The position numbers and the translations under genes are program-made. Source: Syntrophaceae bacterium (GTDB taxonomy: Bacteria > Desulfobacterota > Syntrophia > Syntrophales > Smithellaceae). Taken from it: a stretch of 64,000 bases of DNA. The stretch is from assembly GCA_018436925.1 (NCBI GenBank), contig JAHDKI010000023.1:1-64000 (forward strand), in the 5' to 3' direction. Shown piece by piece: positions 4,606-29,844 of this stretch (positions within the stretch are counted from its first letter, which is position 1; the number at the start of each line of letters is the position of its first letter). The notes below the pieces were generated by a model. The model searched no databases and was not told where the DNA came from. It saw nothing but the letters and a program-made list of their open reading frames with translations.

Positions 4606-4664
4606 TCGAAAACGGATCGAGAATCGAGGGGTGCAAAAAGGCCCGAAGCAAAGCCCCGGATCGG

Positions 4665-5267
4665 CTAAATCCTGGCCAGCACGCGGCAGGGGGCGCCGGC
4701 AACGCCGCAGAGGCGAAGCGGCAACGCAAAAAGCTCTCCTTCGGGCGAAAGACCCAAAGCGGCGGAATCATCCAGATCTTCCACGAGAAACTTGCCCGCA
4801 CGCGCCGCCAGTCGATTAAACGCATAAGGATCGGCCGATTCGACCTCGACAGTTCCCGCAAGAACCAAAACCCGCGGCGGCAGGGAAAGAATCTGATTGG
4901 CAAGATCTTTTGAAAGCGCCGCTCTCAAGCCTTCGGTGCTGCGTATAAAGAGGATTTTTTCCCGCCGGTAGGCGCGAAGACTTGCCTCCATCGACGGCCG
5001 CTGGGCGACGGCCGGCAAATCAAGCAGGAAATACGTCCCTACTAAATCATCCGGCGCAACGGCCTCCAGAGTCGCTCCGCCTTCCACAAAATGCGCGGGG
5101 GCGTCCATATGCGTTCCGGTTTGCGTCCCCATGGACAACCGCGAAACGCGAAATCCTTCGTTCGAAATGGAACTCCATTCAGACAGGTTGAAAGGGGGGT
5201 CTTGATACGGTCCCGAGGCAAAGGGAACAAAGGACGGATTCAGCGGTTTGGTCAGATCGATGATCAT
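4665..5267 (-). CDS. Cyclase-family (kynurenine formamidase-like) metal hydrolase
   Basis: A 200-residue protein of the PF04199 cyclase family, which includes kynurenine formamidases and isatin hydrolases. The metal-binding signature is seen as TGTHMDAPAHF around residues 51-61, matching the family pattern GTHxDxPxHF, and MIIDLTKPLNP is the typical opening. A cytoplasmic metal-dependent amidase or lactone hydrolase is expected; the substrate is unknown. It lies 51 bp downstream of EF-G2 and may be transcribed with it. Confidence 0.82.
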   Translation of the reverse strand: MIIDLTKPLNPSFVPFASGPYQDPPFNLSEWSSISNEGFRVSRLSMGTQTGTHMDAPAHFVEGGATLEAVAPDDLVGTYFLLDLPAVAQRPSMEASLRAYRREKILFIRSTEGLRAALSKDLANQILSLPPRVLVLAGTVEVESADPYAFNRLAARAGKFLVEDLDDSAALGLSPEGELFALPLRLCGVAGAPCRVLARI

Positions 5268-5318
5268 CTCCGGATGCCTCCGATCGAAAAAGACGCCGTC
5301 CGAAGCGCAGCAGGCGTC

Positions 5319-7352
5319 TCAGGCCCGGTCAAACGTTTCGAAAAGCATCGAGAAGACGGCTCGGCCCTGCGTCGCCGAGCGCAAATCCGTGGAATATCCG
5401 AACATGGCTTTAAGCGGCACCTTAGCCTTGACTTCCGAGATCGGCCCTTTGGGATTGACCGACTGGATTTCTCCGCGGCGCGCATTGATGTCTCCGATCA
5501 CGTCGCCCATGAATTCGCTGGGCGTGATAATATCGACCATCATAATCGGTTCGAGCATCGCCGGCTGTGCCGCCAGGCATCCCTCGCGAAAGGCGGTTGC
5601 GGCTGCGATCTTGAAGGCCTGCTGGGAGGACTCGCCTTCGCGGTAGGCGCCGCCGGTGATCCGAACGCCGATATCGATGACCGGATATCCGCCCAGAACG
5701 CCGCTGGTCATGGCTTCCCGGAGGCCTTCTTCGATGGCTTCATGATATTCCGCGGGAACGATCGTTTCGTCAAGCGCGTTCACAATGTCGTTTCCCGCCC
5801 CGCGCTTTCTTGGGGCGAGTTCCAGGCACACACGGCCGTAATGCTTTTTGTCGCCCAGTTCTTTTTCAAAAACACCTTCGGCATCGACGCGCCCGGAAAT
5901 GGTTTCGCGATAGACCACCCGGGGCCGGCCGACATTGACATGCGCATTGAATTCGCGTTTCAAACGATCGACGATGACATCCAGATGCAGCTCGCCCATG
6001 CCGGAAATCACGGTTTGGGCGGTTTCATCTTCGTACTTCACCCGCAGCGTCGGATCCTCGTCGGCCAGCTTCACCAGCGCCACAGCGAGTTTTTCCTGGT
6101 CGGCGGGCGTTTTGGCCTCAATGGCCTGGGAAATCACCGGCTCATAAAACTCGATCTGCTCCAGGACAATCGGCCGGGATTCGTCGCAAAGCGTGTCGCC
6201 GGTTGTCGTGTCTTTGAGCCCCAGGACGGCGACAATTTCACCGGCCGAGGCTTTCTCGATGCGTTCGCGCTTGTTGGAGTGCATGCGCAAAAGTCTCGCG
6301 ATTTTTTCCTTTTTCTTCTTGACGGCGTTGTAGACTTCTCCGTTGGCGGCAATCTGTCCCGAATAGATCCGCAGGTAGGTGAGCTTGCGGCCTTCATCCA
6401 TCTGAATCTTGAACGCCAGCGCGGCAAGCGGTTCCTTGTCGGAACTGTGCCGGACCTCTTCTTCTTTGGTTTTGGGATTGACGCCCCGGACCGGGGGAAT
6501 GTCTTCCGGCGAAGGCAGATAATGAATCACCGCATCCAGAACAGGCTGAACGCCCTTGTTTCTCAGCGCGGTTCCGCACAGAACCGGCACGATCTTCAAA
6601 GCGATTGTGGCCTGTCTGAGCGCCGCGATCAGTTGCGACGGCGCGATCTCTTCGCCGGCCAGATAGGCATCCGCCAGGTTGTCGTCGACATCCGCAAGCG
6701 TCTCAATCATTTTTTCGCGTTCACGGACTGCCGCACCGGCAAAGGCCTCGGGAATATCGACTGCCGAGTACTCCCGCCCCTGCGTGCTGTCATCCCATAC
6801 GAGATATTTCATGGCAATCAGATCCACTACGCCGCCGAATGTATCTTCCGCGCCGACCGGAATCTGCACGGGGACGGGCCGGGAGCGAAAGCGCGCCTGC
6901 ATCATGTCGAGAGCGTGATCAAAATCCGCCCCCACGCGGTCCATCTTGTTGATGAAGGCGATTTTCGGCACGCCGTATTTGTCCGCCTGATGCCAGACGG
7001 TTTCGGACTGAGGCTCGACGCCGGCTACGGCGCAAAAGACGACCACCGCGCCGTCGAGGACGCGCAAGGAGCGCTCCACTTCGATGGTAAAATCGACGTG
7101 CCCGGGGGTATCGATGATGTGAATGTCGTGATTTTTCCACTCGCAGGTCGTGACGGCGGAGGTAATGGTGATGCCGCGCTCCTGCTCCTGAGGCATCCAG
7201 TCCATCACCGCCTCGCCGTCATGGACTTCGCCGAGTTTATAGGACTTCCCCGTATAGAAGAGGATGCGCTCGCTGACCGTTGTCTTGCCCGCGTCGATGT
7301 GCGCGACAATGCCGATATTTCTTGTTCGGGATAACTTCGTTTTCGGCGCCAT
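5319..7352 (-). CDS. Elongation factor G paralogue (EF-G2 type)
   Basis: A 677-residue translational GTPase. The G-domain motifs are intact: AHIDAGKTT (P-loop), RGITI (switch I end), DTPGH (switch II) and NKMD. Domains II-V follow, including [18 protein letters not shown] of domain III and [11 protein letters not shown] of domain V. No str operon genes (rpsL, rpsG, tuf) are nearby and it is shorter than canonical EF-G (~692-700), so it is probably the second EF-G of this lineage, perhaps specialised for translocation or recycling; that split is inference. It sits 5 bp after the GerMN gene. The long open frame on the opposite strand (5091-7334) is a codon-bias shadow. Confidence 0.88.
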
Positions 7353-7357
7353 AGGGT

Positions 7358-7981
7358 CTAATTGCTCTTCGGCTGGGCTCCGGCGAGCAATTCCGGATTG
7401 GACTCAATAGGCCCGAGTGTTGAAATATGGCCTCCGATGGAGTTGACGGCCTTGCCATCGACCAGAATCCGGACCGAACGAATCTGCGGAATGTTTTGCG
7501 CCAGCGAATTGACAAGCGAATACAGTGTCGCCATTTCCGCGGTGGATCCGCGCGGATGGTTTTTAAGAAGCTCCGCGGAAAAATTCACGCTCGCGACGCC
7601 GTCTTTATCCACCGCGACGCCAAGCAGGGCCACGCCGTCCGGAAAAGTGTTCAGATGGCCGGTTTTGGACCCGTCAAGCAGAGCGCGGACAACCTCCGCG
7701 GCCTGGTCCGCCGGATCCGATTCCTTGATGATATAACGTTTTTCCGCCACCAGGAAACGCTCCTGCGCGTCGGAAAAATAAATCTCCGCGGGAAAGCGTT
7801 CTTTCCTTTTCATCGCCTCCGTGTCCACCGGCGGGAACAAGGCGTTGAATAAAATAACGAAAAAAATAACCAGCACAATAAAAACGCCGCCCAGAATCGC
7901 CACCAGATAGGCAATGCGGGTGGATTTCTTTTTTTTGCGGTCTTTGAAATCCAAAGACCGTTTTTGTTTCTTTGTGGACAT
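7358..7981 (-). CDS. Membrane-anchored GerMN-domain protein
   Basis: A 207-residue protein with a very basic cytoplasmic N-terminus, one transmembrane helix at about residues 23-48, and an extracytoplasmic GerMN domain recognised by [39 protein letters not shown] and VRILVDGK. GerMN domains occur in spore GerM and in many non-sporulating bacteria, where they are thought to bind cell-wall material; the function here is unknown. It is the first gene of a unit with EF-G2 5 bp downstream, an unusual pairing of an envelope protein and a translation factor. Confidence 0.82.
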
Positions 7982-21327: not shown

Positions 21328-24300
21328 ATGGATCCGGTTGAAAAGATGACGACGAAACCCTCCAACATAAAGACAATCCCGACAGGGTCAAAACGTTTTT
21401 TCACGCTCATCGGACCGCTGATCCTCTTCTTTTTTGCAGTCTACTCCACTGCGGCAGACGCCACAGATTATCGGGCGAAAGGACAAGAGAAATGGGTCCG
21501 CTTCACATTTATCCTGAAAGATTCAAAAACCGGTAAACCGATCAACGGACGGGTCTACTACCAATCGGATCTGGCATCGGACTGGTTTCATCCGGACAAC
21601 ACAAGGCCCTTACTGCCACCCGGCACGTATCGCGTCGTCGCCTGGGAAAGGCATTACTGGCAATCCGAACAAACGCTGAGGGTTAATCCCCGCAAAGGCT
21701 TGCAGCAACAGATCGTCATCGCACTGGATCCCGTTTCTTCTCCTCGCGACGACAAATCCGGCTCCCCCTTAAAAGTGCCCGAAATCTTGTCGTCACTGGT
21801 CATCACGGGAAACGCCGTTGCAAAAATGCCGCATATGAATGCGTCCTGGTTCGGACAAAGCGGCATGGCCACTTTTGGCTTGTTCACAAATGCCTGGTCT
21901 GAATACCCCGGCGGCATTGGCGGAGGCAATCGAATCCTTACAGGCAATATCCACTACTATTTTTTTGTCAACTCGGACGACGCCAAGTCGCATTTTGACC
22001 GCATGCGCCCTGGTTTTAAGCAGACTGCTTCCAAATCTCAGACGGTAACGGGACCAAGCTCTGTATCGCTGGGAGATCAGGCCTTCATGATCAAGACGGA
22101 CACGTTCTATTCAGACGGCAGCGGCCGAGTGCTTTATGAAAACCGACAATACCTTGTGCTGTATCGCAATGTCGTTTTTAAAATGTCCATCAAAAAAGAG
22201 AGTGGTTTAGATTTTCTAATCACGCCTGAAGAAATATTGCGCCGCATCCGGGCGCTTGACATGCAAAAGGTCAAACGCATCATGGAACCGGAACCCTATC
22301 CCTGGCCCAAAGTCCAGCCAGCGGCCAATAGTCATCAAGAAGCAAAAGCGACCGGGGCACCCGCTTCTGATACGTCCGAAGAAGAGCTTCCCCCGGGAAC
22401 TGTTCTTTTGGCTGTGGCGGGCGGGTCCCTGGTCTTGACGCTTGGCGCTTTGATTCAGCTTTTGGGGATGGGCGGCCTCCAAAACATCACCGACATTCGC
22501 GGCGCGCTGCAAAGCCTTTTTGCGACCGGAGGCACGGATGTCCCGGCAGATGATGACGCCATCCTTGACCAAAGCATTCTGCAGGATATCGGGAGCCTCC
22601 CGAAAGAACCGCAAACCTCCGTGAATGAGACCGTTATTCAGGAATCCCCTGTTGTGGATACCGTCATTCCCGATCCCCTCCCGCCCGGCTTCGAGCACCA
22701 GGGGAAAGTCTGGTATCAGCCGCCGTGGGATCAAGGCGGGCCCTACTGGATGAACAAGGCCGATTACGACGCGATGCGTTCGATGCTGCGCCAGGGCAGA
22801 GTCTGGTCGGACCGCTGGGGCTGGGTGTTTCCGGAAGACGGCAAGGCGATGGAGGCGCAAAACGCCGAAGCCTGGGACAAGTACAAATCCGATACGGATG
22901 ACGATATCAAAGCACTCACAGACCGGATCGAGGCATCCCGGGAAAAACTCGCAGAGATACGCGACAAGCAGGCCGAACTCGACAGAATCGAAGAGCTTCG
23001 CGAGCGGTTAGCCGAGCTCGAAAGGCAGCGCGCGCTGGACAATTCTTTTGCAACCCATCTGAAAGAGACCTGGAAGCATTATGAAGAAGGCGTCAACCGG
23101 GATTTAGACGCGCTGCCGGGAGAACTGAAAAGCATGGCGCTTGCCGCTGCCCGTGAGGTTAGAGACACGACCGGCGCGCTCGTGACCGCCGCGCGGGACA
23201 CAGCCGCCGACATTTATCGGGAAGTGACCGACGCCGACAACTATAAAGCTGTCGGTCAGGCAGCCTTTGACACGGCCAAAGAGCTCATTTTGCATCCCGT
23301 GGACTCTTCGGTCAAAGTGGGGGATACCGTTAAAACCGCCGGGCGCGGCGTTGTGAACGCAACAGGCACGGCGGCGACTGTCGCGGTCGCGATCGCTTCA
23401 GATCCGGTCGGTTTTGCCGAGGCGGCCCTGGGCGTCGATAACTGGCGCAAAGTCCTTGATCCGGACGTGCCGGTGGGGCAGCGCGTCTGCCGCGCGCTAT
23501 ACGGAGCAGTAGATACCGCCTTAAACTTTGCCTCCGGCGGCACGAAAACCGCCGCCGCGGGCGCCGGCGCGGGGCTTGATGCGCTCAAAGCGGCCGACGC
23601 CGCATCCGATACCGCCAAAGCCGCAAAGGGAATTGAAGCCGGTCTCGATGCAGCCAAAACAGCCGACGCGGCATCAGACGCGGCGCGCATCACTCCTAAG
23701 CTTGATGACCCGGCGCGCGCACAGGCCTGGGAAGCGGGCCGCCTGGCGGGTCAAAAGAAAGCGGATCATCTGGCAGAAGCGCTCCAAAGCGGCGATGCCT
23801 CTGAAATCAAAAAAGCGCTGGTCGAGTGCCAGAAAGACAAGCACGCGATTGCATCGCTAAACGCATCTGATGACGCCGTCAAGACCGCCTACAACCAAAA
23901 CATGAAAGACCTCATCACGAATGATGTGGACAATGGAATGAAGCAGAAAATCGCCCAGCGCTATGGCGTCGATCCCGAAGATGTTCGCGTCTTTGAAGTC
24001 AGCAATCCCACCGACAAGGTGAAAATCGGCGCGGACCGCGACTTCACCATTCAGGTGAAAGCCAAACCCGGCGACATTGTGGCCGATCCGAATTCTCCCG
24101 GAAAATTCATCAAGGTTGAACCGGAAGATGCGCTTTACAAGGACGTTCCGGCAAAAGACGCGCAGGCCATTTACAACCGGGAACTCTACTCGAAAGTCAC
24201 CGGCGAACGGATCCCGATGGATCCCGACAAGTTCAAGGCCTTTCAGGCCGATGCCGACAAACTGGCCCACAACATGGATCACGTGGCCGGGCATCGCGTC

Positions 24301-24738
24301 GGCACGGAATCCTACGGCGCATCCGCCCAGGACCTGGAAACCATCCTGCAGAAATCCGGCGGGCGCTTTACCGACCCGGAACAGGCCGGACAACTGGCGT
24401 CTTATAAATCGGCGCATCTGTATCAGCAAGCCGAAAACATTGCCAAGGTGGATCCTCAAAAGGCTGAAGCGCTCATCTCCGACGGTATGCGTCAAACCAC
24501 AAAACAATACGACAACCTGATTACTCCAAGGGTTCGCGCTTTGGAAAACCAGGGGATCGACGCCGCCGTCGATTCACGCCTGAGCCGGGCGGTAGACATT
24601 TTAAAGAAAGTGGAAACCGAGGGCATGGCGCCGTCTAAAGTCGAGGCGCTTCTCAAATCTCAGATGAACATGACGAAAGACGACGCCGCGCAGATGCTGG
24701 GCGCTCAACTGGCTAAACTGCATCATATGAAAGGGTAA
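21328..24738 (+). CDS. Giant membrane-anchored protein with coiled coil and pretoxin-like C-terminal region
   Basis: An 1136-residue protein with no recognised family. Visible parts: signal or membrane anchor (about 25-43); a beta-rich domain like carboxypeptidase-regulatory/PEGA modules (KTGKPINGRVYYQSD, LPPGTYRVVAWERHYW); an exported domain to ~330; a second hydrophobic helix (about 357-380); an acidic Pro-rich linker; a Trp-rich segment (VWYQPPWDQGGPYWMN, WSDRWGWVFPEDGK, about 465-510); a long coiled coil (about 525-575); an Ala/Gly-rich stretch with an internal duplication of a D-A-L/A-K-ADAASD unit; and a soluble C-terminal domain with KVKIGADRDFTIQVKA near 900. ATG 21346 is a possible alternative start. 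Topology is unclear because of the second helix. Confidence 0.75.
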   Translation: MDPVEKMTTKPSNIKTIPTGSKRFFTLIGPLILFFFAVYSTAADATDYRAKGQEKWVRFTFILKDSKTGKPINGRVYYQSDLASDWFHPDNTRPLLPPGTYRVVAWERHYWQSEQTLRVNPRKGLQQQIVIALDPVSSPRDDKSGSPLKVPEILSSLVITGNAVAKMPHMNASWFGQSGMATFGLFTNAWSEYPGGIGGGNRILTGNIHYYFFVNSDDAKSHFDRMRPGFKQTASKSQTVTGPSSVSLGDQAFMIKTDTFYSDGSGRVLYENRQYLVLYRNVVFKMSIKKESGLDFLITPEEILRRIRALDMQKVKRIMEPEPYPWPKVQPAANSHQEAKATGAPASDTSEEELPPGTVLLAVAGGSLVLTLGALIQLLGMGGLQNITDIRGALQSLFATGGTDVPADDDAILDQSILQDIGSLPKEPQTSVNETVIQESPVVDTVIPDPLPPGFEHQGKVWYQPPWDQGGPYWMNKADYDAMRSMLRQGRVWSDRWGWVFPEDGKAMEAQNAEAWDKYKSDTDDDIKALTDRIEASREKLAEIRDKQAELDRIEELRERLAELERQRALDNSFATHLKETWKHYEEGVNRDLDALPGELKSMALAAAREVRDTTGALVTAARDTAADIYREVTDADNYKAVGQAAFDTAKELILHPVDSSVKVGDTVKTAGRGVVNATGTAATVAVAIASDPVGFAEAALGVDNWRKVLDPDVPVGQRVCRALYGAVDTALNFASGGTKTAAAGAGAGLDALKAADAASDTAKAAKGIEAGLDAAKTADAASDAARITPKLDDPARAQAWEAGRLAGQKKADHLAEALQSGDASEIKKALVECQKDKHAIASLNASDDAVKTAYNQNMKDLITNDVDNGMKQKIAQRYGVDPEDVRVFEVSNPTDKVKIGADRDFTIQVKAKPGDIVADPNSPGKFIKVEPEDALYKDVPAKDAQAIYNRELYSKVTGERIPMDPDKFKAFQADADKLAHNMDHVAGHRVGTESYGASAQDLETILQKSGGRFTDPEQAGQLASYKSAHLYQQAENIAKVDPQKAEALISDGMRQTTKQYDNLITPRVRALENQGIDAAVDSRLSRAVDILKKVETEGMAPSKVEALLKSQMNMTKDDAAQMLGAQLAKLHHMKG

Positions 24739-26913: not shown

Positions 26914-26941
26914 TTGGAGTGAATGATAGTTGCGATAAAAT
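26914..26941 (+). promoter_or_regulatory. Possible promoter for the terpenoid gene pair
   Basis: TTGGAG (26914-26919), 16 bp, TAAAAT (26936-26941). The predicted start near 26948 lies just upstream of the GGAG ribosome site serving ATG 26958, which supports choosing that start over ATG 26919. Confidence 0.45.
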
Positions 26942-26957: not shown

Positions 26958-27656
26958 ATGCCGGCACTGCAAAACTACCCCTATCTTCTATCCACGCTGA
27001 TCGGCGCGGTCATCGTTGTGGCGGTTTATCTGCTTGTATCAAAAGAAAGGCGCATCATGCTGATCGGCGGCGCCGCCCTTGTTCCTTTCAGTTTTTGCGC
27101 GATTCTTCACGAAACATCATACTGGAATGCCGGACGATTGGGCGGTTTTTCTTGGGGAATCGAGGATGCCTTGTTTACCTTCAGCGTCGGAAGTCTGACC
27201 GCGGCGATCGGAGCAAGAGTTCTTCAACTGGACTTGCCGGTTCGGATCCAGTGGCAATCGGCCGCGAAGAAATTTATTCTGCTATGCTTTTCAGCAACAA
27301 TCCTGGTTATCATGTTGACACTCGCGGGCATGGACATCATGCTTGCAACCATCATCGCCCAGATCGCGGTGACCGCCTTATTAACGGCTGCAAACCGCCA
27401 CAGTTGGTGGCGTCCGTCTTTGGCCTCGCTCATCTACACATCTTACTATACCGTTATGCTGTATATTTTCTTTCACCGGGTTGGAGGCTTTGCAGACCTC
27501 TGGAACGGTCCCCATCTTTGGCCGGCCCGGATTTTTGGGCTCCCTCTGGAGGAGATCATCTGGGTTTTTACCTTTGCCTGGTGCTGGGTTTTAATGTTGG
27601 CGTTTTGCCTCGACACAAAGATCTCGGTAAAGGAAGAACTTCATGAATCGGCATGA
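26958..27656 (+). CDS. Lycopene-cyclase-domain-like integral membrane protein
   Basis: A 232-residue membrane protein with about six or seven helices. The last part, RIFGLPLEEIIWVFTFAWCW, matches the PxEE motif and following Trp/Phe-rich helix of heterodimeric (CrtYc/CrtYd, CarR-type) lycopene cyclases, which protonate and cyclise terpenoid ends. LGGFSWGIEDALFTFSVGSL in the middle resembles the second conserved block with its Glu. Start 26958 is chosen for GGAG 6 nt upstream. Its 3' end overlaps the fused prenyl synthase gene by 14 bp, so the proteins are co-made and likely act in one terpenoid pathway. The exact substrate is unknown; no crtB or crtI is present. Confidence 0.68.
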   Translation: MPALQNYPYLLSTLIGAVIVVAVYLLVSKERRIMLIGGAALVPFSFCAILHETSYWNAGRLGGFSWGIEDALFTFSVGSLTAAIGARVLQLDLPVRIQWQSAAKKFILLCFSATILVIMLTLAGMDIMLATIIAQIAVTALLTAANRHSWWRPSLASLIYTSYYTVMLYIFFHRVGGFADLWNGPHLWPARIFGLPLEEIIWVFTFAWCWVLMLAFCLDTKISVKEELHESA

Positions 27657-29844
27657 TTCGATTTCTTCGACCACCCCCCCGGCGGGGCGAATTTTACCCG
27701 TTCCTCCTCATGAAGATGCGGCCGTAGAATGGTGGTTTGTCCATGGAAATTTCTCCACCGGCCAGGACATTGCCGGACACTTCATGCTGAGCTTTTTTCG
27801 GCATGCCGTTAACGGTTCGCACGGCTTTTCCATGCTGTTTCGCATCGAAGATTCATTGCATCGCGACCCCTTTATCGTTTCCCGCGCGGATCCTCATGTG
27901 CAGGAGCTCCTGGTGCGCTCAAGGGAAGAACTTCAAAAAACCAATCTTTATGGACATTTACTCAACGTCTATTTCGACGAAGTGGATCGATACGGATTTC
28001 CGTCCGCCCAGTTCGCTTCAGGCTCACGCGCACATTGTTCGGACGACGGACTTTCCATCTCGTGGGACGACTTCTACCTGAAAGTTCAGGATGGATTGCT
28101 AAGTGTGGGATTCCGCCCCTCCTGGGCTGACACGCATGTCCAATTCATTCTGTCTTCGCGGACTTCAGCCGTCGATTTAGGGATTTTAGAAACACCCGGA
28201 ACAAAGATGGGCTATCTGACCTATCCGATCTGCAGCCTTTCCGGATGTTACAACAGCCAGCCTGCGACCGGCAATGCCTGGTTTGACCGGCAGTGGGGCG
28301 ATATGTCCTGGTTTGCCTCCGAAAGCGACGCCTCGGGACAAAGAAGGATTCAGGGCTGGGACTGGCTGGGAATTAATCTGGATGACGGGCGCGCTGCGGT
28401 TGTCCTGATTTCCAGAGATATGGAAACGCGAAACATGACCGCATCGAACTTTGTCATGATTGACCCTCAAGGCGCCGTGCGCAAGCTTGACCGTTTCCAA
28501 ATCGAACCGATCGCGTCATGGCAAAGCCCGAAGACTTTTATTGTTTATCCGGTGGCCTGGAAAATGATCATCCCTGCCCTCAATGGAGAGATCATCTTCA
28601 CGCCGCACCGGGAAGATCAGGAAATTCCCGTGGCCGGGGCCACGCGAGCGATCTGGGAGGGCGCAGGGCGCGTCACGGGAACTCTGGAAGGCAAACCGGT
28701 TTCAGCAACGGCAAGATTGGAACTCAACGGCTACGGCTGCGTGTTTCATCCCCGGGACATTCTGGATAGTTTCTCCCGCCGTATTGTCGGTCACATTCAG
28801 AACTTCTTTCCCGAGTCCCCGGATGAAGCCTTCTATAAAAAGCACACCGGCCTTTCGCCCGAGCGGGACAACATAGAAGCCGTTCGTGAATTCCTGACCC
28901 GGCCCATATGGGATCTGCTTCGTCGGGGCGGAAAACATTGGCGCCCGATGTTCGGAATCCTAATGGCGGAAGCTCTAGGCCTGGACGCCGCGAAATACGA
29001 AGACCTCATTGCCGTCAGCACGGAGCTCACGCATCTGGCGTCGCTGGTGATTGACGATATTGAGGACAATGCCGAAACCCGCCGCAATGACGCATGCATT
29101 CATCTCAAGTACGGAACGAACATCGCCATCAATGCCGCCAATGCGCTGTATTTTCTGCCGATCACCAAGCTCCGGGAAAACCCTTTGCTGACCCAGGAAC
29201 AACTGCTGGCCATTTACTCCAAAACGATGGAGTTTTTTGTCAAAGCGCACTTCGGTCAGGGAATGGATCTTTACCGCAAGGCGCACGCATTGCTAAGTGA
29301 CCGCGCCGATATTGATTTCCTGATTCGCGACACGCTCTCGGTCTATAAGCTCAAAACTGCGGCCCCGATCGAGTTCATCGCGCATTCGGTTTGCCTTATC
29401 GCCGGAGCCGATGCGTCAACCACCCGGGCCGCGGTCGAGCTGGCCGAAAATTTCGGCGTTGCCTTTCAGATTAAAGACGACATACACGACTTCAGCGGTT
29501 CAGAGAAATGGACGAAAGACCGGGGTTCGGATCTGGCGAACGGCAAGCTCACTTATGTCATCTTACTGGCGCTTAAGACTTTGACAGGTGAAGATCGCCA
29601 ATTTCTCATCCGGCTTCTGCGCGGGGATGCCGAACCTGAAGCGGATTCTCTGCGCAAGGGGATGGAGCTTGTCCGCGCCTCAGGAGCCCTCGAACAAGCA
29701 GACACTCTTGTTTTTTCCATGCTCAATGAGGCGTGGGAGAAGTTTGCCGGCGCCACCCGGCAGTCCGACGCCCGAATACTTCTAAAAGTCATGTGCGAAC
29801 ACTTGCTGAATCTGGATTACAACGATCCGGACCTCACGCAATAA
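27643..29844 (+). CDS. Fusion: CrtC/AttH lipocalin-like domain plus polyprenyl diphosphate synthase
   Basis: A 733-residue two-domain protein. Residues ~1-370 resemble the CrtC/AttH (hydroxyneurosporene synthase, lipocalin-9) family: AVEWWFVHGNF, GNAWFDRQWGDMSWFASESD, GWDWLGINLDDG. Relatives hydrate carotenoids, and fungal members act as Diels-Alderase-type cyclases. Residues ~410-733 are a trans-prenyl diphosphate synthase with both Asp-rich motifs, VIDDIEDNAETRR (about 468) and FQIKDDIHDF (about 611), plus GSDLANGKLTYVILL. One polypeptide could make a prenyl chain and modify it. AAGGAAG lies before the ATG, which overlaps the lycopene-cyclase-like gene by 14 bp. I know of no described protein with this architecture. 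Confidence 0.8.
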   Translation: MNRHDSISSTTPPAGRILPVPPHEDAAVEWWFVHGNFSTGQDIAGHFMLSFFRHAVNGSHGFSMLFRIEDSLHRDPFIVSRADPHVQELLVRSREELQKTNLYGHLLNVYFDEVDRYGFPSAQFASGSRAHCSDDGLSISWDDFYLKVQDGLLSVGFRPSWADTHVQFILSSRTSAVDLGILETPGTKMGYLTYPICSLSGCYNSQPATGNAWFDRQWGDMSWFASESDASGQRRIQGWDWLGINLDDGRAAVVLISRDMETRNMTASNFVMIDPQGAVRKLDRFQIEPIASWQSPKTFIVYPVAWKMIIPALNGEIIFTPHREDQEIPVAGATRAIWEGAGRVTGTLEGKPVSATARLELNGYGCVFHPRDILDSFSRRIVGHIQNFFPESPDEAFYKKHTGLSPERDNIEAVREFLTRPIWDLLRRGGKHWRPMFGILMAEALGLDAAKYEDLIAVSTELTHLASLVIDDIEDNAETRRNDACIHLKYGTNIAINAANALYFLPITKLRENPLLTQEQLLAIYSKTMEFFVKAHFGQGMDLYRKAHALLSDRADIDFLIRDTLSVYKLKTAAPIEFIAHSVCLIAGADASTTRAAVELAENFGVAFQIKDDIHDFSGSEKWTKDRGSDLANGKLTYVILLALKTLTGEDRQFLIRLLRGDAEPEADSLRKGMELVRASGALEQADTLVFSMLNEAWEKFAGATRQSDARILLKVMCEHLLNLDYNDPDLTQ

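Follow-up and report, generated by a model that had tools for sequence, protein, structure and literature searches.

What would a lycopene-cyclase-like membrane protein be doing directly upstream of a prenyl diphosphate synthase in a bacterium that lacks the entry enzyme of the carotenoid route? Two overlapping genes raise this question in a 64,000-nucleotide stretch of DNA (hereafter the window) from a Syntrophaceae bacterium of the Desulfobacterota (GenBank assembly GCA_018436925.1, contig JAHDKI010000023.1). The original prediction, made from the letters alone, read the pair as a possible new terpenoid pathway in which a linear isoprenoid is built, hydrated or folded, and cyclised at one locus. 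We evaluated the upstream gene (gene A), the downstream fusion gene (gene B), their relatives and their neighbours, and found the underlying observation confirmed and its interpretation partly supported.

Organization of the locus

An ORF check recovered both reading frames as predicted, with gene A and gene B overlapping by 14 bp (Table 1). For gene A, whose stop codon occupies 27654-27656, we favour the ATG at 26958, with a GAGGA upstream and homologues that begin near there in the alignment, over the alternative GTG at 26919, the longest possible start. Upstream in the window, positions 21328-24738 encode a 1136 aa protein that is probably exported and that matched no NCBIfam family above cut-off.

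Table 1. Features of the gene A-gene B locus (window positions).
Feature	Position	Strand	Description and basis
Gene A	26958..27656	+	membrane protein; divergent lycopene-cyclase-like, PF18916-related family; two internal repeats; ORF and family evidence
Acid pair of repeat 1, E82 D83	27162..27167	+	invariant in 13 homologues
PLEE motif of repeat 2, residues 209-212	27543..27554	+	P209 and E212 invariant in 13 homologues
AAGGAAG, ribosome-binding-site-like, serves gene B	27630..27636	+	inside gene A; read from sequence
Gene B	27643..29844	+	CrtC/AttH domain fused to prenyl diphosphate synthase, 733 aa; ATG at 27643, stop at 29844; ORF, Pfam, model
CrtC N-terminal lipocalin domain, PF07143, residues 28-219	27724..28299	+	Pfam
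WFDRQWG signature with proposed acid D215	28279..28299	+	kievitone hydratase has the same W-x-D-R-Q-W-G
Lipocalin_9 domain, PF17186, residues 235-364	28345..28734	+	Pfam; conserved W239-x-W241 at its start
Polyprenyl synthase domain, PF00348, residues 416-666	28888..29640	+	Pfam
First Asp-rich motif DDIED, residues 471-475	29053..29067	+	context ASLVIDDIEDN
Second Asp-rich motif DDIHD, residues 612-616	29476..29490	+	sequence/alignment

Gene B joins a prenyl diphosphate synthase to a CrtC/AttH-type domain

The predicted arrangement of a synthase with both Asp-rich motifs behind a CrtC/AttH domain was borne out by Pfam matches above cut-off on both sides of the fusion. On the synthase side, PF00348 scored 172.5 bits (cut-off 27), both motifs (DDIED and DDIHD) are intact, and the fold is all-helical with Foldseek matches that include GGPP-synthase folds; from these features, the C-terminal domain almost certainly makes a prenyl diphosphate. 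In the tree it is separated from the two other synthases of the genome, one long-chain and one short-chain, with support of 100/98. It belongs to a branch in which I/V-DD precedes the first motif, whereas the genome's own long-chain enzyme has H-DD. Its core (ASLVIDDIEDN) compares with ASLLIDDIEDN in human GGPP synthase, and the product is most likely C20 or close to it. GGPP synthases of the human/yeast type with the IDDIED motif thus share with gene B the full catalytic motifs and nearly the same core, but in gene B the synthase sits behind a CrtC/AttH domain.

On the lipocalin side, matches to CrtC (PF07143, 27.2 bits, cut-off 22.5) and Lipocalin_9 (PF17186, 80.4 bits), together with an AttH fold in AlphaFold and Foldseek, place gene B in the CrtC/AttH double-lipocalin superfamily. 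With the AlphaFold model (built with eight family members; pLDDT 84.5, pTM 0.86) as query, the best Foldseek matches in the PDB were AttH NE1406 (2ich, E 4e-16) and kievitone hydratase (7a0t, E 2e-11), with prenyl synthases also matched, and a sequence profile of the lipocalin domain matched only the former two proteins in the PDB. The AttH/DUF2006 protein NE1406 (PDB 2ICH) is the nearest solved relative of this half, at 24% identity. Kievitone hydratase of Nectria haematococca (PDB 7A0Q/7A0T), which hydrates a terminal prenyl double bond (PMC5805349), shares the double-lipocalin CrtC fold and both signatures of gene B, W-x-D-R-Q-W-G and then W-x-W; it differs in being a secreted fungal protein with a prenylated isoflavonoid as substrate and no synthase domain, and its identity over the fold is 12-13%.

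The original prediction had also invoked kinship to carotenoid hydratases, for which the residues divide. In RgCrtC, His239, Trp241, Tyr266 and Asp268 are essential, with Asp268 proposed as the acid by analogy with squalene-hopene cyclase (PMC4717167), and Trp283 and Trp285 stabilise the cation (PMC12402844). Mapped through an alignment with a genuine carotenoid-cluster CrtC from Roseobacter, Asp268, Trp283 and Trp285 are kept in gene B as D215, W239 and W241, while His239, Trp241 and Tyr266 are replaced by M189, Y191 and W213. Because the Asp and Trp residues are kept and the His/Trp/Tyr set is replaced, a carotenoid hydratase is excluded and a prenyl hydratase or protonating cyclase is plausible. 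The kinship therefore stands for the kievitone hydratase fold and the catalytic Asp, and fails for the carotenoid-hydratase His and Tyr. The lipocalin domain of gene B plausibly works in one of these two ways, although tail hydration or cyclisation, read from residues and a model, is only probable. The carotenoid 1,2-hydratases of Rubrivivax and Thiocapsa, which have in common with gene B the Pfam CrtC match besides the Asp and paired Trp residues, are moreover unfused, and the host of gene B has no carotenoid pathway. One plasmid record (L012) labels a standalone CrtC/AttH protein as carotenoid 1,2-hydratase.

As an architecture, gene B resembles the chimeric prenyltransferase-terpene synthases (fungal variediene synthase, TvTS), in which a prenyl synthase is likewise joined to a domain that may use what it makes, except that those chimeras have a class I terpene synthase where gene B has a lipocalin-type domain.

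The fusion is rare and recurs across phyla

Scanning one genome per species across 84,980 species, we found full-length relatives of the fusion in five genomes (loci L014 to L018), belonging to Verrucomicrobiota (L014, L016), Omnitrophota (L015) and Alphaproteobacteria (L017, Bauldia; L018, Sneathiellales). The intact close fusions are 33-36% identical to gene B overall, and the one in L014 (6843-9057) is split within its CrtC half by a frameshift that is either real or a contig error. A further Verrucomicrobial fusion was found in genome G591, and remoter ones (23-25% identity) in Streptomyces (L007, L019-L022) and Tolypothrix PCC 7601, the last of which also carries sulfotransferase and GT28 glycosyltransferase domains; a synthase from Nitrosomonas stercoris has diverged strongly in its N-terminal part. 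Rarity is evident from four samples: with the query genome counted in each, full fusions occurred in 1 of 297, 2 of 388, 1 of 285 and 1 of 337 genomes, the 285-genome sample holding two unfused relatives as well. Among 297 genomes of the host's phylum no fusion was found apart from the host's own, and none was found in the viral and phage collections. Also in the host's phylum, a longer ORF (L006 634-2505, genome G077) carries a related synthase at its C-terminus behind an unrelated N-terminal region, which resembles a cysteine-containing DUF116-type domain.

This recurrence in independent genomes means that the fusion is neither chance nor an assembly artefact, and we rejected both explanations. 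Trees of the CrtC half (support 100/99) and of the synthase half (98/99) recover the same five-genome clade, which fits descent of the fusion as one unit with occasional loss; a synthase tree with two unfused Omnitrophota synthases inside the close clade has support of 98/96. The open-access literature searched yielded no account of the fusion. It is thus a rare, multi-phylum and uncharacterised architecture, and the original statement that no system of this form had been characterised holds in so far as its relatives are uncharacterised as well, but not as a claim of uniqueness, given relatives in five other phyla.

Gene A is a divergent relative of two-repeat lycopene cyclases

Gene A had been singled out for a PLEE motif like that of heterodimeric lycopene cyclases; the motif is present, and assignment to the family proved a matter of degree. 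Against Pfam Lycopene_cyc (PF18916) gene A scores 17 bits, below the cut-off of 27, and it had no NCBIfam match at E<=0.1 (the TIGR03462 cut-off is not passed). Its homologue in Ilyobacter (pairwise BLASTP, E=1e-9) passes Lycopene_cyc at 58 bits, and that model also recovers all 13 of the 13 assembled family members at E<=0.1. When one half of the family profile is aligned with the other (hhalign P 7e-5), E82-D83 falls on E211-E212, so that each of two repeats carries an acid pair (P-x-E-E-like), and hydropathy predicts membrane helices; invariant residues across the family are Y68, W69, E82, D83, W195, P209 and E212. A structure model from the single sequence is unreliable (pLDDT 50), and a PDB profile search with the family returned only chance matches to ABCB1.

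Judged by these repeats and residues, gene A is a two-repeat relative of the CrtYcd-type cyclases. We do not call it a lycopene cyclase, given the sub-cut-off Pfam score and the missing carotenoid precursor enzyme in the genome. It resembles CrtYc/CrtYd (CarR-type) lycopene cyclases in being a two-repeat membrane protein with a P-L-E-E motif and PF18916 similarity; it differs in falling below the family cut-offs, in having no phytoene synthase or desaturase alongside, and in belonging to a family whose partners are instead UbiA, FtsX, MMPL or the fusion.

In the host's phylum, homologues of gene A occur in 9 other genomes of 395 searched, and no fusion was seen at their loci. The host itself has a second lycopene-cyclase-like gene (G000:C30:44604-45281; L107 7581-8330, minus strand). 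It overlaps a MacB/FtsX permease gene at that gene's end, and in line with it are genes for an ABC ATPase and for a protein of 243 aa. The latter has no Pfam match, and homology to a LolA-like protein encoded near the L014 fusion was not supported.

Genomic context points to a non-carotenoid lipid

The host genome is 100% complete and contains no gene of the SQS/PSY family anywhere, extending to the whole genome what the original prediction said of phytoene synthase. Since phytoene and squalene synthases are both missing, the substrate is not a carotenoid, and a carotenoid cluster was rejected. Nor does the host (G000) encode a class II cyclase C-terminal domain at 1e-5 (PF13243 search). A 267 aa squalene-hopene-cyclase-like toroid fragment (L107 13748-14551, minus strand; E 2e-5, just under the cut-off) is encoded some 5 kb away from the second lycopene-cyclase-like gene. 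In the Verrucomicrobiota, the L014 and L016 fusions adjoin class II cyclases of the SHC family that are 54% identical to each other and keep the third Asp position of DxDD (EADT in L014, DADT in L016). Elsewhere, a divergent geranylgeranyl-reductase-like (GGR-like) flavoprotein gene lies near the L018 fusion, a GT28-like gene and an HMG-CoA synthase gene flank the G591 fusion, one on each side, and ABC transporter genes occur at the Streptomyces canus fusion locus. We interpret these neighbours as pointing to a terpenoid that is glycosylated and exported in some lineages.

Transport genes recur often enough to suggest another role for the lipocalin half: a domain derived from the AttH proteins of Lol/MacB-type ABC exporters could bind and hand over lipid with no catalysis of its own, the fusion tethering prenyl-lipid synthesis to transport and gene A acting as membrane partner. 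At least 41 of 71 standalone CrtC/AttH relatives (L023-L093) directly adjoin an FtsX permease gene on the same strand, and examples among them have signal-peptide-like N-termini; for NE1406, a lipid-transport role was inferred from its LolD neighbours (PMC2954199). Consistent with such a role, the L015 fusion shares one operon with a MacB/FtsX permease gene and, following it, an ABC ATPase gene that the fusion overlaps, ATPase, FtsX and LolA-like genes lie upstream of the L014 fusion, and lycopene-cyclase-like genes follow FtsX/ATPase genes in L129 and L107 and, in L123, an MMPL/RND transporter gene (4630-7754) directly. Gene B departs from this pattern: its N-terminus has no hydrophobic segment or evident signal peptide, so that the fused domain presumably stays in the cytoplasm; the window has no transporter next to it, the flanking genes scanned including no FtsX-like neighbour; and it keeps the Asp/Trp active-site signature of prenyl hydratases. 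On balance we consider a purely lipid-carrying domain rather unlikely.

A second set of neighbours raises the possibility that what the module modifies is a prenyl-quinone or some other product of UbiA. The synthase would then supply the side chain, a UbiA enzyme from another locus would transfer it, and gene A would afterwards cyclise or modify the tail. Lycopene-cyclase-like genes pair with genes for UbiA-like prenyltransferases in five genomes of the host's phylum (L124-L128) and in Ilyobacter polytropus (L011), the partner being confirmed by Pfam in L125 and L011 and identified by similarity in the others, while those in L130 and L131 are solitary. In two Omnitrophota loci (L143, L144), unfused synthases of the same clade stand in an operon with a conserved order of UbiA-like, NDH-2-like flavoprotein, TPR protein, HemW-like radical SAM and synthase genes, as read from sequence, and this company points to quinone-type lipids. 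Taken together, gene A relatives appear to neighbour mostly genes of lipid synthesis or export. However, no UbiA gene adjoins the A-B pair, the host already has a separate long-chain synthase, and the Verrucomicrobial fusions are accompanied by class II cyclases rather than UbiA, which leaves decoration of a UbiA product unlikely for this locus.

Whether genes A and B belong together at all, as the original prediction had assumed, can be judged from other fusion genomes. That they are unrelated neighbours joined by transfer, with only the fusion a unit, would fit the absence of a gene A homologue from six other fusion genomes tested (G298-G303) and the lack of both genes in two congeners and other family members, but is improbable given that the genes overlap by 14 bp, that gene B has a good ribosome site and that a second A-B neighbourhood exists: in the L014 genome (G297), the sole, divergent gene A homologue adjoins the fusion, and by a rough estimate (about 1e-3 or less per genome) chance is unlikely to account for two such neighbourhoods in different phyla. 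The coupling thus survives in a weaker form, with gene A an optional rather than an obligate partner.

A proposed non-carotenoid terpenoid pathway

The reading we tentatively favour, at close to an even chance, is that the A-B pair is part of a non-carotenoid terpenoid pathway combining chain synthesis, tail chemistry by the lipocalin domain and a ring step by gene A. In this scheme, the C-terminal domain of gene B would condense isopentenyl diphosphate into a prenyl diphosphate of C20 or near; the fused double-lipocalin domain may then take the chain, or its product, and hold the omega (tail) isoprene buried between the barrels; and D215 would protonate the buried tail to give a tail-hydrated or cyclised product. 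In the most conjectural step, gene A, as a membrane enzyme of the lycopene cyclase superfamily, might close or isomerise a ring on the lipid by means of its two acid pairs. Later glycosylation, reduction and export, encoded beside the fusion in relatives, would in the host be encoded elsewhere in the genome, if at all.

Weighing against this pathway are the replaced RgCrtC residues, the AttH relatives with transporters and the absence of gene A from the six fusion genomes, as well as the lack of a class II cyclase domain in the host, the quinone-type context of some unfused synthases, and, for gene A, the missed cut-offs and the unreliable structure model. A stronger version, in which this is a new pathway whose bifunctional enzyme both elongates and acid-activates the tail, whose lycopene-cyclase-family membrane enzyme closes a ring on a non-carotenoid substrate, and whose fusion represents a new class of chimera in several phyla, we regard as somewhat unlikely.

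If the lipocalin domain does hydrate or cyclise the product of the synthase, gene B would be a chimeric terpene-forming enzyme whose partner fold is unlike the class I domain of the fungal chimeras. Such an enzyme would also allow tail-hydrated terpenoids to be made from simple precursors, and would supply a role for AttH-type domains and for lycopene-cyclase-like proteins of carotenoid-free organisms.
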